Positions 5,704-10,913 of a DNA stretch of 64,000 nucleotides are shown here, piece after piece. Within the stretch, counting starts at the first letter, position 1. Every line of letters begins with the position of its first letter. The position numbers were made by a program, and so were the translations under genes. The stretch spans positions 1 to 64,000 of the forward strand of contig JAUIJD010000022.1 of the NCBI GenBank assembly GCA_030431475.1, written 5' to 3'. The notes beneath the pieces were generated by a model, which saw only the letters and a program-made list of their open reading frames with translations, was not told the DNA's origin and did no database searches. This DNA comes from Verrucomicrobiia bacterium. Lineage in GTDB: Bacteria > Verrucomicrobiota > Verrucomicrobiia > Verrucomicrobiales > Akkermansiaceae.

Positions 5704-8583
5704 TCAGCGGTTCAGGGCGAGGTCGGAGTTGAGGAGGGTGTTGGCGACGAGGACGAGGGCGGCCTCGTTCGGGGTGGGGGCGAGCTTGGACGAGTCGGCG
5801 GGGGTTTTCTCATACTCGGCGAGCGCGTCGGCGTGGAGCGAGGCGAGGGTGTCGAGGGTTTCCTCACCCGGGTCACGGAGGGTGAGCAGGCGATAGCCGT
5901 GGGCGAGTTGTTCGCGGAGGTCGCTCCCGCCTGTGACCATGCGTTGGGTGAAGGCCCGGGCGAACTCGATGTGGGCGGGGTCGTTGAGCGTGACCAGCGC
6001 CTGCAGGGGGGTGTTGGTGGTGATCCGCCGCGGCAGGCAGACGTCGCGCGACGAGCCGTCGAAGGTGAGGAAGGCGGGGTAGCCGGCGGTCCGCTTGTTG
6101 TAGGTGTAGATGGCGCGCCGGTAGCGGTCGACCCCTTCCGAGGTCTCCCATTTCGCGCCGCTGTAGACCGAATTCCAGACACCGTCGGGCTGTGGTGGGA
6201 AGACCGGTTTGCCGCCCATCTTGCGCTCGAGCAATCCGGAGACGAGCAGTGCCTGGTCGCGGACCATTTCGCCGGTCAGCCGCTGGCGCGGACCTCGGGC
6301 GAGCAGTCGGTTGCGCGGGTCGCGTTTGAGCAAGGCCTCGGTGGCCTTGTTCGACTGACGATAGGTGGCGGAGAGGACGAGCTCGCGGAGGAAGGGCTTG
6401 AGATGCCAGTCGTGGTGGTCGCGCAGGCGGAGCGCGAGGAAATCGAGGAGCTCGGGATGGCTCGGCAGCGAGCCCGACGAGCCGAAGTCTTCCTGGGTCT
6501 CGACGATGCCGATGCCGAAAAGGTGGGCCCAGAGGCGGTTGGCGAGGGTGCGGGCCGCCAGCGGGTTGGTGTCGCCGACCAGCCATCGGGCCATGTCGAG
6601 ACGGTCGCCGCCGATGCCCTCGCCACCGAAGACGTCGGGCACGCCGGGTTCGACCTCCTCGTCGAGGGTCATGCGATTGCCCCGGATGAAGAGGCGGGTG
6701 GTACGCTTGGCGGCTTCGGAGCGTTCGCGCATCACGGGGATCATGGTGCCCTTGATGGAGCGGTACTGCTTGCGCAGTTTCTCGAGGTTGTTCCAGACCA
6801 GCCCGTGCTCGGGGGAGTTGAGGTGGGCGATGAGGGAATCGTTGTCGCTGGCCGAGAGCCGGAAGCGGGGGAGGATGGTGCTTTGGTTCTGGCCGTTGCA
6901 GACGGCGCCGTGACGGATGCGGAGTTCGAGGCGCTCGTCCGCTTCAGGCGTGGCCGTTTCCCCGGGGATGAACCAAGCGGTGCGGGGCCGTTGGGTGGAG
7001 GGAAATTCGCCGAAGCCGGCGCCGCCGCCGCGAAGCGAGTCGTTGGGATCGAAGGGGCCCGCGAGGAAGTCGGCGGCCACCTCCCGGAGCGGGATCGGGC
7101 GCCGGGAGCCGTCGGGGGCCACGTAGGCGGCCTCAAAGCCGGCGATCACCGCCCCTTCGCCGCGCCATTCCTTCGGATCGTCCTGCTCGGGGAAGATCTC
7201 GACCTGGATCAGGGACAGCGGCCGGGCATGGGTCTCAAGGACGAAGACCCCCTGGTTCGGGGTGGTTCCGGAGGACACCACGATGCCGTCGGCTTCCTGC
7301 GTGAGCCGTCCGGTCGATGGCTCGACGACCGCCCTGTCAAACTGGAGTGTCTGCCAGTCGTCGACCTTCGCGGCCAGGGCGCGCATGGGCGCGTTCATCG
7401 CTTCGCGACGCTGGCGGATGCGCTTTTCGAGGCGCACCGCCTCGGCCTGCTGACCGGGGTCGTGGGCGACCTTGGTGGTCGGCCAGTCGGAGTTCTGGTC
7501 GATGTCCTCGGTGTTGTTGAAGAACGCGAGGAAACGGTAGTAGTCCTCGTGCGGGACGGGGTCGTAGGGGTGGGCGTGGCACTGGACGCAGCCGAAGGTG
7601 GTGGCATTCCAGGCGGTCCAGGTGGTGTTGACCCGGTCGATCACGGCCATCATCCGGTACTCTTCGTCGTCGGTGCCGCCCTCGGTGTTGTTCTGGGTGT
7701 TGCGGTGGAAGGCGGTGGCGACGAGGTCTCGCGGTTCCGGATCCTTCAGCAGGTCGCCGGCGAGCTGCTTGATGGTGAATTCGTCGAAAGGAAGGTCGGC
7801 ATTGAACGCGTCGATGACCCAGTCGCGATACGGCCAGATCTCCCGGTGGGGGTCCTTTTCAAAACCGAAGGTGTCGGAGTAGCGGGCGAGGTCGAGCCAC
7901 ATCGCGGCCCAGTGTTCACCGTAGGCCGGTGAGGCGAGCAGCCGCTCGACGACTTCCTCCCTCGCCGATCGGGGATCCCGTCGGGCGGACTGCTGGAAGG
8001 CCTCTAATTCCTCGAGCGTCGGCGGCAGGCCGGTGAGGTCGAACGAGACGCGGCGCAGCCAAGCGGCGGGGTCGGCCTCGGGGGAAGGGGAGAGTTTCTC
8101 CGCCTCGAGGCGGGCGAGGACGAAGCGGTCGAGGTCGTGGCTCGGCCAGTCGGCGTCGGCGACCTCCGGGATTTCCGGGAGGACGGGCGGCTGGAAGGCC
8201 CAGTGCTCGCCCCACTCGGCGCCTTGTCGGACCCACTCGACGAGGGTGTCGATCTCTCCCTGGGCCAGGGGGTGGGGATGATGATCGGGCGGCGGCATCC
8301 GGTCGTCGGGGTCGTCCGTGAGAAGGCGGCGGACCATCTCCGAGCGATCGGGGTCGCCGGGGACCACCACCGGCCGGCCCGATTCGCCGTTGCCGAGCAC
8401 GTCCTCGCGGTAGAGGAACGAGACCTCCCCGGCCATCTTCACCCCGCCGTGGCAGGTGGTGCAGTTCTTGGTGAGGATGGGTCGGATGTCGCGGTTGAAG
8501 TCGACCTTCTCCGGCACCGCAAGGGCGACGGGCAGGGTCAGAATCGGGAGCAGAAGGGTGACCGGACGCATTGGAGGCATCAT
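5704..8583 (-). CDS. PSD1-type planctomycete cytochrome C domain protein (DUF1549/DUF1553)
   Basis: The 959-residue protein has a signal peptide (LLLPILTLPVALA), then a heme motif CTTCH at residues 41-45 in the planctomycete cytochrome C domain, followed by PSD1 domains of DUF1549 ('LPPTLEELEAF', 'MWLDLARYSDTFGF') and DUF1553 ('RTLANRLWAHLFGIGIV', 'YRRAIYTYNKR') type. A discoidin-like insert seems to lie in the middle. These are secreted proteins of the Planctomycetes-Verrucomicrobia group, typically paired with DUF1501 proteins (3840-5309 here) and often linked to polysaccharide breakdown; the biochemical role is unproven. The start could also be the Met at 8571. The divergent AraC gene may control it. 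Confidence 0.92.
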   Translation of the reverse strand: MMPPMRPVTLLLPILTLPVALAVPEKVDFNRDIRPILTKNCTTCHGGVKMAGEVSFLYREDVLGNGESGRPVVVPGDPDRSEMVRRLLTDDPDDRMPPPDHHPHPLAQGEIDTLVEWVRQGAEWGEHWAFQPPVLPEIPEVADADWPSHDLDRFVLARLEAEKLSPSPEADPAAWLRRVSFDLTGLPPTLEELEAFQQSARRDPRSAREEVVERLLASPAYGEHWAAMWLDLARYSDTFGFEKDPHREIWPYRDWVIDAFNADLPFDEFTIKQLAGDLLKDPEPRDLVATAFHRNTQNNTEGGTDDEEYRMMAVIDRVNTTWTAWNATTFGCVQCHAHPYDPVPHEDYYRFLAFFNNTEDIDQNSDWPTTKVAHDPGQQAEAVRLEKRIRQRREAMNAPMRALAAKVDDWQTLQFDRAVVEPSTGRLTQEADGIVVSSGTTPNQGVFVLETHARPLSLIQVEIFPEQDDPKEWRGEGAVIAGFEAAYVAPDGSRRPIPLREVAADFLAGPFDPNDSLRGGGAGFGEFPSTQRPRTAWFIPGETATPEADERLELRIRHGAVCNGQNQSTILPRFRLSASDNDSLIAHLNSPEHGLVWNNLEKLRKQYRSIKGTMIPVMRERSEAAKRTTRLFIRGNRMTLDEEVEPGVPDVFGGEGIGGDRLDMARWLVGDTNPLAARTLANRLWAHLFGIGIVETQEDFGSSGSLPSHPELLDFLALRLRDHHDWHLKPFLRELVLSATYRQSNKATEALLKRDPRNRLLARGPRQRLTGEMVRDQALLVSGLLERKMGGKPVFPPQPDGVWNSVYSGAKWETSEGVDRYRRAIYTYNKRTAGYPAFLTFDGSSRDVCLPRRITTNTPLQALVTLNDPAHIEFARAFTQRMVTGGSDLREQLAHGYRLLTLRDPGEETLDTLASLHADALAEYEKTPADSSKLAPTPNEAALVLVANTLLNSDLALNR

Positions 8584-8624: not shown

Positions 8625-8676
8625 AAATGGGAGATGGTTGTGGATTTTGGTCGGATTTGATGGAGAATGCGCGGCC

Positions 8677-9480
8677 ATGCCGAAAACCTGGGATCGTCTG
8701 CTTGAGCAGCTCCGTTGTCCGCTGGGCCGGCTGGTGGAAATCGGCGTGGTGCGGAACTCGGAGGGAGGGATGGCACGCTTCCGGTATCTGCGGCGTTTCG
8801 CCCTGATCCTGATCACGCGCGGCGAGGGGATCTACGAGGATGAAATGGGGCGCCAGCGCAGCCTGGTGGCGGGCGACTGGGTGCTGGTGCTGCCGGAACT
8901 CGGTCACTCGTATCGGCCGCTCGTCGCCGGTGGCTGGGATGAGTTCTACGTGATGTTCGAGGGGCCCCTCTTCGAGCTTTGGCGCGAGCGGGGCATGCTG
9001 GGCACCGACCATGTGGCCGGACACCTGCACGGGATCGACCAATGGGTGGATCGCCTGCGACGGGAGGTGGTCGAATCCGACCGCTCGGCGACCTCGCGGA
9101 TCTGCGCCTTCCAGCACTTTCTGGCGGAGGTGCTGGAAGAAGGCGGCGGGGACTGGAGCTCGGCCCCGTCGGGACCGGGTTGGTTTGCCGAGGCGTGCCG
9201 ACTGCTGTCGCGGCCGGGTGCGGAGGTGAAGCGGGTCGCCGCCACGCTCGAGCTGAACTACGAGACCTTCCGCCGCCGTTTCCGCGAGCACGCGGGCATG
9301 CCGCCGCATCGCTACCACCGTCAGCAGCTGATCAACCGCGCCGCCCGCCTGCTGGAGACGACCGACATGAAGTCGGCCGATATCGCCAGTTCGCTCGGGT
9401 TCTGCGACGAGCCCTATTTTTCCAGGGTCTTCCGACAGGTCACCGGGCGCACTCCGAGCGATTACCGGCGGGGTCGGTGA
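8677..9480 (+). CDS. AraC-family transcriptional regulator
   Basis: The protein has about 267 residues. The N-terminal half is a cupin-like sensor ('GDWVLVLPELGHSYRPL'). The C-terminal 100 residues carry two helix-turn-helix motifs: 'VKRVAATLELNYETFRRRF' and 'SADIASSLGFCDEPYFSRVF', followed by 'GRTPSDYRRG', the AraC signature. I placed the start at MPKTWDRLL (8677), preceded by GGAG at a loose distance. It is divergent from the PSD1 gene, so it may control the PSD1/DUF1501 group in response to a sugar. The effector is unknown. Confidence 0.88.
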   Translation: MPKTWDRLLEQLRCPLGRLVEIGVVRNSEGGMARFRYLRRFALILITRGEGIYEDEMGRQRSLVAGDWVLVLPELGHSYRPLVAGGWDEFYVMFEGPLFELWRERGMLGTDHVAGHLHGIDQWVDRLRREVVESDRSATSRICAFQHFLAEVLEEGGGDWSSAPSGPGWFAEACRLLSRPGAEVKRVAATLELNYETFRRRFREHAGMPPHRYHRQQLINRAARLLETTDMKSADIASSLGFCDEPYFSRVFRQVTGRTPSDYRRGR

Positions 9481-9482
9481 AG

Positions 9483-9502
9483 TGTTCATGAGAACAGTTT
9501 TT
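9483..9502 (+). terminator. Weak intrinsic-terminator-like hairpin after araC
   Basis: TGTTC-ATGA-GAACA forms a 5 bp stem just past the araC stop and is followed by GTTTTT. The stem is short, so it may be coincidental. Confidence 0.35.
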
Positions 9503-9541
9503 AGTTGACGGGTCGTCTGACGACGGGTAGGCGGAGGAACC

Positions 9542-10003
9542 ATGAACCCGATTGCCGAACCTTCCCCGACGACCGACCGACTTCCCGAGCACGCCATCTA
9601 CAAGCCGAACGCGAAGGGCAGCGGCGGGGTGATCCGCTTCGGCCTCAATCCGGCCAAGGGCGCGGTCTTTCTGGATGCGGCGCCGCAGAGTGGCGAGCGG
9701 CAGTTCGACTGGGAGAACAAGGTCACGATGAAATGGGGCCTGCCCGATCTCGGGGCGGCGCTGGCGGTGCTCCAGGGTCGTGAAGCTTCGGCGAAGCTGT
9801 TCCACAAGTCCGAGCGGGCCAACAGCGCCTGCGAGTTGCGCCGTCGTGACGATCCGGACCGGGCGCCCTACCTGATGGGCGTGTCGCGGCAGGAGGCGGC
9901 GGACAAGTCGGTGAGGAAGGTGACGATTCCGATCACCCACGCCGAAGCCGCCGTGCTCGAGCAGGTCCTCCAGGCCGCGGTGCGGCGGCTGGTGGGGTGG
10001 TAG
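9542..10003 (+). CDS. Whirly-like single-stranded-DNA-binding protein
   Basis: This 153-residue protein is preceded by GGAGG at a good distance, one of the few strong ribosome sites in the window. Its layout resembles plant Whirly proteins: a K/G-rich strand ('KGSGGVIRFGLNP', 25-37), a strand with 'FDWENKVTMKWGLPDLG' (55-71), a helix with 'GREASAKLFHK', and a C-terminus 'VTIPITHAEAAVLEQVL' to a final 'GW' (127-153). Plant Whirly proteins have 'YDWSRK', 'CEFFHDP', 'VPVTKAEFAVL' and end near 'GW'. Such proteins bind single-stranded DNA and aid genome stability or transcription. The comparison is from memory, so the fold call is an inference. The gene stands alone after araC. Confidence 0.6.
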   Translation: MNPIAEPSPTTDRLPEHAIYKPNAKGSGGVIRFGLNPAKGAVFLDAAPQSGERQFDWENKVTMKWGLPDLGAALAVLQGREASAKLFHKSERANSACELRRRDDPDRAPYLMGVSRQEAADKSVRKVTIPITHAEAAVLEQVLQAAVRRLVGW

Positions 10004-10073: not shown

Positions 10074-10167
10074 GGAGGTCGGCCGGGGGCGTCCGACCCT
10101 ACCTTTCCCGGTAGTCCCGAGGGCATGGGACGTGACCTCCGGAGGCCGGCCGGGGCGTCCGGCCCTA
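10074..10167. repeat. Two direct copies of a GC-rich palindromic unit
   Basis: A unit of about 27 bp beginning GGAGGTCGGCCGGGGGCG (10074) recurs as GGAGGCCGGCCGGGGCG (10141). Each ends in TCCGRCCCTA and contains a GGYCGG/CCGRCC stem. The second copy reaches the trmD stop codon (10165-10167). Confidence 0.7.
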
Positions 10168-10839
10168 TCTCAGCAGATCCGGCCGGTTGGTCCGGGTGCG
10201 TTCGAGGGCGTGTTCCCGTTTCCATTCCTCGATCTTCGCGTGGTGACCGGAGAGCAGGACGTCGGGGACCCGGAGTCCGCGGAATTCGGCGGGCTTCGTG
10301 TAGGCGGGGGCCTCGAGGAGCTTGGGGTCGGAGAAGGACTCGTCTTGCGGCGAGCGTTCATCGCCGAGCGCGCCGGGCAGCAGCCGGACAACGGCATCGG
10401 TGACCACGGCGGCGGCGATCGCGCCGTTGGTCAGCACGTAGTCGCCAATCGAGAGTTCGAGGTCGACGAGTTGTTCGATCACGCGGTGATCCACGCCCTC
10501 GTAGTGGCCGCAGACGATGAGAAGGTGCCCGCCCTTCTCGGAAAGCTCGCGGGCGACGGCTTGTCGGAAGACCTTCCCCTGGGGCGTCATCAGGATCACG
10601 GTGGTGTCGGGGGTCCTGAGCTCCTCGATGGCGGCGAAGAGGGGTTCGGGCTTGAGCAGCATGCCCTGGCCGCCGCCGCAGAGGTAGTCGTCGGTGCGGC
10701 GGTGCTTGTCGGTCGCCCAGTCGCGCAGGTTATGGGCGCGGATTTCGACGATCCCGGCCTCGCGGGCGCGGGCGATGATGCTCTCGCTCAAGGGCGCGAG
10801 GGCGATCTCGGGGAAAAGGGTGAGGATGTCGATGCGCAT
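10165..10839 (-). CDS. trmD: tRNA (guanine(37)-N1)-methyltransferase
   Basis: The protein has 224 residues and methylates G37 next to the anticodon with S-adenosylmethionine, which prevents frameshifting. It starts MRIDILTLFPE at 10839. The SPOUT trefoil-knot motifs are visible: 'LIVCGHYEGVDHR' (YEGxDxR) and 'ELSIGDYVLTNGAIAA', where 'NGAIAA' replaces the more usual 'GGELAA'. The C-terminal part 'PAEFRGLRVPDVLLSGHHAKIEEW' (here split as PAEFRGLRVPDVLL and SGHHAKIEEW) is well conserved. The usual ribosomal neighbours (rpsP, rimM, rplS) are absent from this window. Confidence 0.95.
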   Translation of the reverse strand: MRIDILTLFPEIALAPLSESIIARAREAGIVEIRAHNLRDWATDKHRRTDDYLCGGGQGMLLKPEPLFAAIEELRTPDTTVILMTPQGKVFRQAVARELSEKGGHLLIVCGHYEGVDHRVIEQLVDLELSIGDYVLTNGAIAAAVVTDAVVRLLPGALGDERSPQDESFSDPKLLEAPAYTKPAEFRGLRVPDVLLSGHHAKIEEWKREHALERTRTNRPDLLR

Positions 10840-10852
10840 GGGGATTCGGAGT

Positions 10853-10913
10853 ATCGACATTCCTGTCGATCTTCAAGGCGTCGGAGGGTGTGTTGATCGA
10901 CAGGAATGTCGAT
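10853..10913. repeat. Family A REP pair left of RAYT 2
   Basis: Two copies of the 18 bp palindrome ATCGACAGGAATGTCGAT (7-4-7) lie in opposite orientation at 10853-10870 and 10896-10913. The second carries the tail TCTCCGGAA that also follows the copies at 11534 and 27942 (TGCTCCGGAA there). Confidence 0.93.

Follow-up and report, generated by a model that had tools for sequence, protein, structure and literature searches.

The open reading frame at positions 9542-10003 of the window (by which we mean the whole 64,000-nucleotide stretch of DNA analysed here, from a bacterium of the Akkermansiaceae) encodes a true homologue of the plant Whirly proteins, and the gene appears, from the sequence of a predicted operator in its promoter, to belong to the LexA (SOS) regulon. 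Plant Whirlies bind single-stranded DNA (ssDNA) and protect chloroplast and mitochondrial genomes. Family and fold point to an ssDNA binder, the operator to the SOS response, and the neighbours of related genes to replication and repair; we therefore read the protein, with a probability of about 0.8, as an SOS-induced ssDNA-binding homologue of the plant Whirlies that would serve repair and fork restart together with SSB and RecA. That it binds ssDNA, forms a tetramer, is controlled by LexA and is induced by damage is what we infer from these lines of evidence.

The reading frame is a real gene, as judged from its conservation in L002, the closest relative among the fetched loci (83% identity), from dN/dS, from its third-position GC of 0.87 and from its homologues in the family; because dN is 0.108 against a dS of 0.878 in the comparison with L002 (dN/dS about 0.12), we consider it to be under purifying selection. 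It is present as a single copy in its own genome, on the plus strand and with all the motifs (KGSGGV, FDWENK, ASAKLFHKS, VTIPITHAEAAVL and a final GW) from which an earlier note on this DNA had proposed a likeness to Whirlies, and the pI calculated for the product, 9.4, would be compatible with ssDNA binding. The same note had pointed to a good ribosome-binding site, which is indeed found close to the start codon (Table 1); its suggestion of possible good expression probably does not hold for undamaged cells, because the promoter contains a LexA-type operator. A scan for sigma-70 promoters gave no match. The AraC-family regulator encoded upstream shows no sign of membership in the whirly system, and a reading nearly identical to the TrmD-type neighbour adjoins the whirly gene in L002 too. 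At 5704-8583, the minus strand carries a large PSCyt1-PSCyt2-PSD1 (DUF1549/DUF1553) gene, of a kind typical of Planctomycetes and Verrucomicrobia, with a relative at the same place in L002.

Table 1. The whirly gene and its surroundings in the window, and the other operator sites of the same genome.
Feature	Coordinates	Strand	Remarks
Whirly-family protein	9542..10003	+	ATG, 153 aa, ends ...RRLVGW; predicted beta4-alpha-beta4-alpha
Shine-Dalgarno-like GGAGG	9533..9537	+	4 nt 5' of whirly ATG
Predicted LexA operator TGTTCATGAGAACA (operator site, whirly gene)	9483..9496	.	exact TGTTC-N4-GAACA palindrome
AraC-family regulator, upstream neighbour	8638..9480	+	HTH_18 5e-22
tRNA (guanine-1)-methyltransferase, TrmD type, convergent downstream neighbour	10165..10860	-	PF01746 2.4e-60
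Operator site, recA			TIGR02012, 515 bits
Operator site, lexA			TIGR00498, 166 bits
Operator site, ssb			TIGR00621, 146 bits
Operator site, integron integrase			TIGR02249, 387 bits
Operator site, split integron-integrase-like locus			220 bits, under cut-off 265; 186-aa ORF ~660 bp on
Operator site, imuA-imuB-dnaE2-like operon			Y-family polymerase (PF00817), then error-prone DnaE (best match NF004225)

The Whirly profile PF08536 matches the window protein significantly (E 8.2e-11, 42.3 bits, above the gathering cut-off of 23), and none of 14 control genomes was positive for this family. A single-sequence phmmer search against all PDB chains found six different sequences with an E of 10 or less, every one a plant Whirly (6e-8 to 3e-6), and a profile built from 15 sequences of the bacterial group to which the window protein belongs (group I, see below) found the same six at E 1.4e-10 to 5.4e-8. 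The trypanosome proteins MRP1 and MRP2 were absent from both sets of matches up to E 10, and neither NCBIfam nor PHROGs has a family for the window protein. Over 133 positions, the window protein is 20-24% identical to five plant Whirlies; D56, W57, H88, P130, E135 and W153 are identical in all five plant rows and all 17 group I rows. The resemblance put forward in the earlier note is thus borne out by the profile score, by PDB matches that are all from plants and by the predicted fold, with one of its parallels holding in part: KGxGGV was said to match the plant KGKAAL, and it does so in an alignment of 65 sequences, one residue off the claimed register, but not in the pairwise phmmer alignment, which pairs SGGV of the window protein with a plant SGGV located further along.

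An AlphaFold model computed from the 15 group I sequences (pLDDT 88.8, pTM 0.81) has the order E4-H-E4-H, so that the window protein is predicted to have the two four-stranded sheets and two helices of the Whirly fold rather than a different one. When aligned with VIA-align, the model superposes on Arabidopsis WHY2 with a Z of 17.6 and an rmsd of 2.2 A over 133 residues, followed in the ranking by MRP (16.2) and then by PURA (8.5). Foldseek against the PDB, at E <= 1e-3, returned 23 chains, with plant Whirlies at ranks 1-16 and trypanosome MRP1/MRP2 at ranks 17-23.

The window protein shares with the plant Whirlies (WHY1, WHY2, WHY3 and p24/PBF-2) a PF08536 match above cut-off, the fold (Z 16.1-17.6), a basic pI, the YDW/FDW motif, FH, IPITxAE and the C-terminal GW; unlike them, it lacks the acidic/aromatic C-terminal tail, stopping at ...LVGW, the segment that separates KGKAAL from the following strand is shorter in it (65-sequence alignment), and it is bacterial, with a LexA-type operator. 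The second Lys of KGKAAL, K67 by number, is replaced in the window protein (KGSGGV) by Gly or Ser, depending on the register; as it has no K67-type Lys, we call the protein a Whirly homologue and not a plant-type Whirly. We count the loss of this Lys and of the tail, like the sharing of the fold with the RNA-binding MRP1/MRP2, among the points against our preferred reading. According to a passage of PMC6963530, this second Lys is required for the plant Whirly 24-mer, and KGKAAL is described in a section of a review as largely confined to angiosperms. As for MRP1/MRP2, they have the same fold but no detected sequence similarity to the window protein. They are guide-RNA-binding RNA-editing proteins of kinetoplasts. 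PUR-alpha and its Borrelia counterpart have a similar arrangement, with Z values (8.5 and 6.4) near or below the level of 8 at which VIA-align warns of a mere common arrangement, and are absent from the sequence matches. Bacterial SSB (PF00436), an OB-fold protein, presumably has the same ligand; it carries the same operator in the window genome, is paired with Whirly in a second bacterial group, and is found alongside Whirly, not replaced by it.

Three bacterial groups of Whirly-like proteins could be distinguished. Group I, that of the window protein, was found at 15 loci of the species-genome collection, all in Verrucomicrobia (the scan was for close relatives). Its distribution is patchy: among 195 genomes of the family, 44 matched query A1. 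Many relatives thus live without a Whirly, which we count against the SOS reading. Group II sits in another class of Verrucomicrobiota: 52 of 387 genomes searched were matched, and 46 of these 52 are outside the window's order. In the class to which G242 belongs, its profile matched 103 of 288 genomes. Of two members scanned with PF08536, one scored above the cut-off (24.6 bits) and the other below it (22.5 bits); because of these matches and of its link to group I (hhalign 99.8%), we assign group II to Whirly, while noting that its profile alone (A4) found no plant Whirlies in the PDB, only coatomer and RNA polymerase omega at E 0.065 to 0.79. Group III, to which two weak matches (E 0.08 and 0.3) led, is a C-terminal domain of hypothetical proteins, and relatives of the first one are found on 59 plasmids. 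In the 12 plasmids fetched (11 from Pseudomonadota and 1 from Thermodesulfobacteriota), Whirly was the best Pfam match every time, above the cut-off in two and at 13 to 22.9 bits in the other ten; the group III profile matches plant p24 in the PDB (E 3.5e-4) and is linked to group I at 95.5% by hhalign. The region of the plant IYKGKAALTV reads VYGGKAALCF in the group III consensus, with GGKAAL exact in 3 of 11 rows, and the column of the second Lys holds Lys or Arg in 10 of these 11 rows, whereas groups I and II have Gly there without exception (L025, left out of the rows as a near copy, has Asn there). In an unrooted tree of the 65 sequences over 135 columns, plants and groups I, II and III are separate, with ultrafast bootstrap values of 87, 100 and 99 for the three bacterial groups, and groups I and II are joined at 99, which gives no direction of descent.

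Turning to viruses, tblastn against phage records gave no match with the window protein, a group II protein or a group III domain, and viral contigs gave none with queries A1 or A5. A group II-like Whirly reading was seen in one contig classed as viral (IMG/VR IMGVR_UViG_3300033463_000099, 69.9 kb; L172:3950-4483), the only viral contig matched by query A4 (27% identity, E 3e-13); this reading has no Pfam match at 0.01, none to PF08536 included, and its model is poor (pLDDT 51.7). Nine viral BFVD proteins have folds like that of the window Whirly model (Foldseek E 7e-7 to 6e-4), among them A0A172Q074 of Acinetobacter phage ME3 and three from one Bacillus phage (W.Ph. Gp208/212/230); judging from such models, phage Whirlies may be common. 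The protein A0A6J5NR37 of an uncultured Caudovirales phage (Foldseek E 7e-7, 25% identity) bears the name "Whirly transcription factor", so databases already apply this name to a protein from outside the plants; unlike the window protein, it is phage-encoded.

The predicted operator lies 45 nt 5' of the whirly ATG and 2 nt 3' of the end of the upstream ORF. Its motif, TGTTC-N4-GAACA, is reportedly the LexA operator of Verrucomicrobia, and we tested it in the genome itself. The exact motif occurs seven times in 4.73 Mb, whereas the reversed control does not occur; the genome encodes both LexA and RecA, each with this operator beside its gene, and the other sites are listed in Table 1. At the imuA-type operon, the first gene has no Pfam or NCBIfam match and the reading of the error-prone DnaE is cut by the end of the stretch; at the split integron-integrase locus, the ORF nearest the operator has no match. 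Two integron-integrase loci of this genome (L168:2927-3904 and L167:3685-4919) thus sit at a predicted LexA operator, one being above the model cut-off and the other apparently split. Across ten related genomes we counted 81 operator sites, 5 to 13 in each, versus 4 control sites.

The operator is also kept in front of related genes. Among 42 group I loci (the window, 5 others and 36 fetched, leaving out hits G432, G468 and G470), 41 could be counted, L137 being excluded as it has no upstream sequence: in the 260 bp that precede the YKPN motif, the full site is found in 32 and the core GTTC-N4-GAAC in 35, versus an expectation of 0.0015 and 0.0025 per 260 bp, calculated from the remainder of the same loci (515,339 bp with 3 full sites and 5 core sites). 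The 36 group I sites have 25 different spacers, and the flanking T and A, not demanded by the search, are each kept in 34. By this count the core is absent from six loci (L076, L134, L144, L152, L157 and L158), which weighs against the SOS reading; in L157 an exact operator is located just inside the longest ORF, 4 nt from its start, and sites with one mismatch are present in L134, L152 and L158. Also weighing against it, none of 35 group II promoters contains the operator. A search for a shared operator upstream of ssb in 22 group II loci returned dyads in A/T runs only. By eye, many of the group II ssb promoters in L077-L101 show a pair of blocks of the type TTTTCCGGAAA...TTCCTT, for which the dyad count is no test. 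Two clusters of conserved genes, c1 and c2, were also seen near group II ssb; c1 looks sigma-factor-like by eye, and one scanned member of each had no Pfam match.

To describe gene neighbourhoods, neighbours were clustered, the clusters turned into models that were searched near whirly, and one representative of each named by Pfam, which yielded PriA, SSB, a ComM-type Mg-chelatase, YraN/UPF0102 and MutS; the counts that follow are not independent events, because the loci are related by descent. In group I, a divergent PriA gene lies within 260 bp in 12 of 42 loci, two further loci have PriA at a distance of 1.1 and 2.5 kb, MutS is found in one, and a GyrA-like gene, so named from its sequence, is upstream in four (238 to 1231 bp). 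None of the sought repair genes lies within 3 kb in 23 of the 42, the window among them, and the window's own neighbours, the AraC regulator and TrmD, are not repair genes; both observations count against the SOS reading. In group II (35 of 46 loci fetched), 22 loci, spread over 12 of 17 family codes, have a co-directional SSB gene no more than 525 bp upstream; MutS is found in 3 and ComM in 3, and 7 have none of the sought genes. The 22 genomes with an SSB-linked locus have two or three SSB genes each, so the Whirly-linked one is an additional SSB; the window genome has a single SSB gene. A replacement of SSB by Whirly was considered and rejected, as SSB is present in the window genome and in these SSB-linked ones. 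On the group III plasmids, annotated neighbours include replication initiators, ParB, helicases and an exonuclease, not all of them everywhere. In L024, L025, L116 and L118, the group III genes adjoin helicase genes or sit one gene away from them, and some have RdgC, restriction endonuclease or exonuclease genes close by; these four loci are possibly a plasmid DNA-processing module.

Under the reading that we prefer, the whirly gene would be repressed by LexA and its product made once RecA-ssDNA filaments inactivate LexA. By analogy with plant Whirlies, this small basic protein of Whirly fold would most likely form a tetramer coating ssDNA. Together with ordinary SSB, it would occupy the ssDNA that becomes exposed where the DNA is broken or forks have stalled, and faithful recombination and fork restart would be favoured over microhomology-mediated joining, the task that plant Whirlies perform in organelles.

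Other explanations have to be weighed. The protein could bind RNA in the manner of MRP1/MRP2, or act as a damage-induced transcription or RNA-processing factor: the fold match to MRP nearly equals that to plant Whirlies, RNA binding is reported for plant Whirlies as well, and an RlmN-like ORF adjoins one group I gene and a pseudouridine-synthase-like ORF another (both named on sequence grounds). The sequence similarity, however, is to plant Whirlies, with no MRP among the PDB matches up to E 10, the recurrent Pfam-named neighbours are DNA replication and repair genes, and the operator is of SOS type, so that we regard an RNA-binding role as unlikely. A role in natural transformation or mobile DNA, coating incoming ssDNA rather than serving repair, would suit group II, paired with an additional SSB or with ComM/YraN, and group III, which is carried on plasmids, often near replication, partition or helicase genes; it fits poorly with group I, to which the window protein belongs, with its SOS-type operator and, in part, its PriA or GyrA-like neighbours, and with the lone SSB of the window genome, and we give it little credence.

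Somewhat less probable still is that the palindrome is the site of another regulator, or serves a neighbouring gene, and that the whirly gene is constitutive. Its identity as a LexA operator is predicted from sequence, and in 12 of the 42 relatives the divergent PriA gene shares the intergenic region; yet the six remaining sites of the genome are at SOS-type loci, including lexA (one being the split integron-integrase locus), and in the window the upstream gene is co-directional and ends at 9480, so the palindrome presumably serves the whirly gene. As for the idea that bacteria recently received a Whirly from plants by horizontal transfer, the patchy distribution in the family would agree with it, but the low identity to plant Whirlies, the three deep bacterial groups with long branches to plants (I+II 99, III 99) and the involvement of three bacterial phyla, two of them through plasmids, make it very improbable.

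Whirlies are called "unique to plants" in a passage of PMC6963530 and plant-specific or unique to plants in passages of PMC9070903 and PMC11359715, and part of PMC10909546 states that no homologue was found in a cyanobacterium. Among the matches listed in our search of the open-access literature, nothing dealt with a bacterial Whirly or with a link between Whirly and LexA. As the Pfam profile finds bacterial proteins and a phage entry is named Whirly, the homology itself is already visible in databases; what we believe to be unreported is the extent of the bacterial family, its SOS-type operator and its pairing with SSB. Since a bacterial homologue is apparently placed behind an SOS switch, the supposedly plant-only family looks like a bacterial DNA-repair family too. 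A broader view, which we hold tentatively and at somewhat less than even odds, is that Whirlies make up an ancient class of bacterial proteins that bind ssDNA and maintain the genome, separate from SSB and divided into at least three branches: one SOS-induced, in Verrucomicrobiaceae and their kin, one in SSB operons of another class of the phylum, and one on plasmids of Pseudomonadota and Thermodesulfobacteriota with a KGKAAL-like stretch. The organelle Whirlies of plants would then have been acquired from such bacteria or plasmids, and their suppression of illegitimate recombination inherited from a bacterial damage response.

The bacterial Whirly is thus a candidate for a second ssDNA-binding protein of the bacterial SOS response, and in a simple bacterial cell its gene could be deleted without developmental side effects. 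An SOS-type Whirly in bacteria would also make the origin of plant Whirlies testable, as well as the question of whether their role in organelle repair is ancestral.
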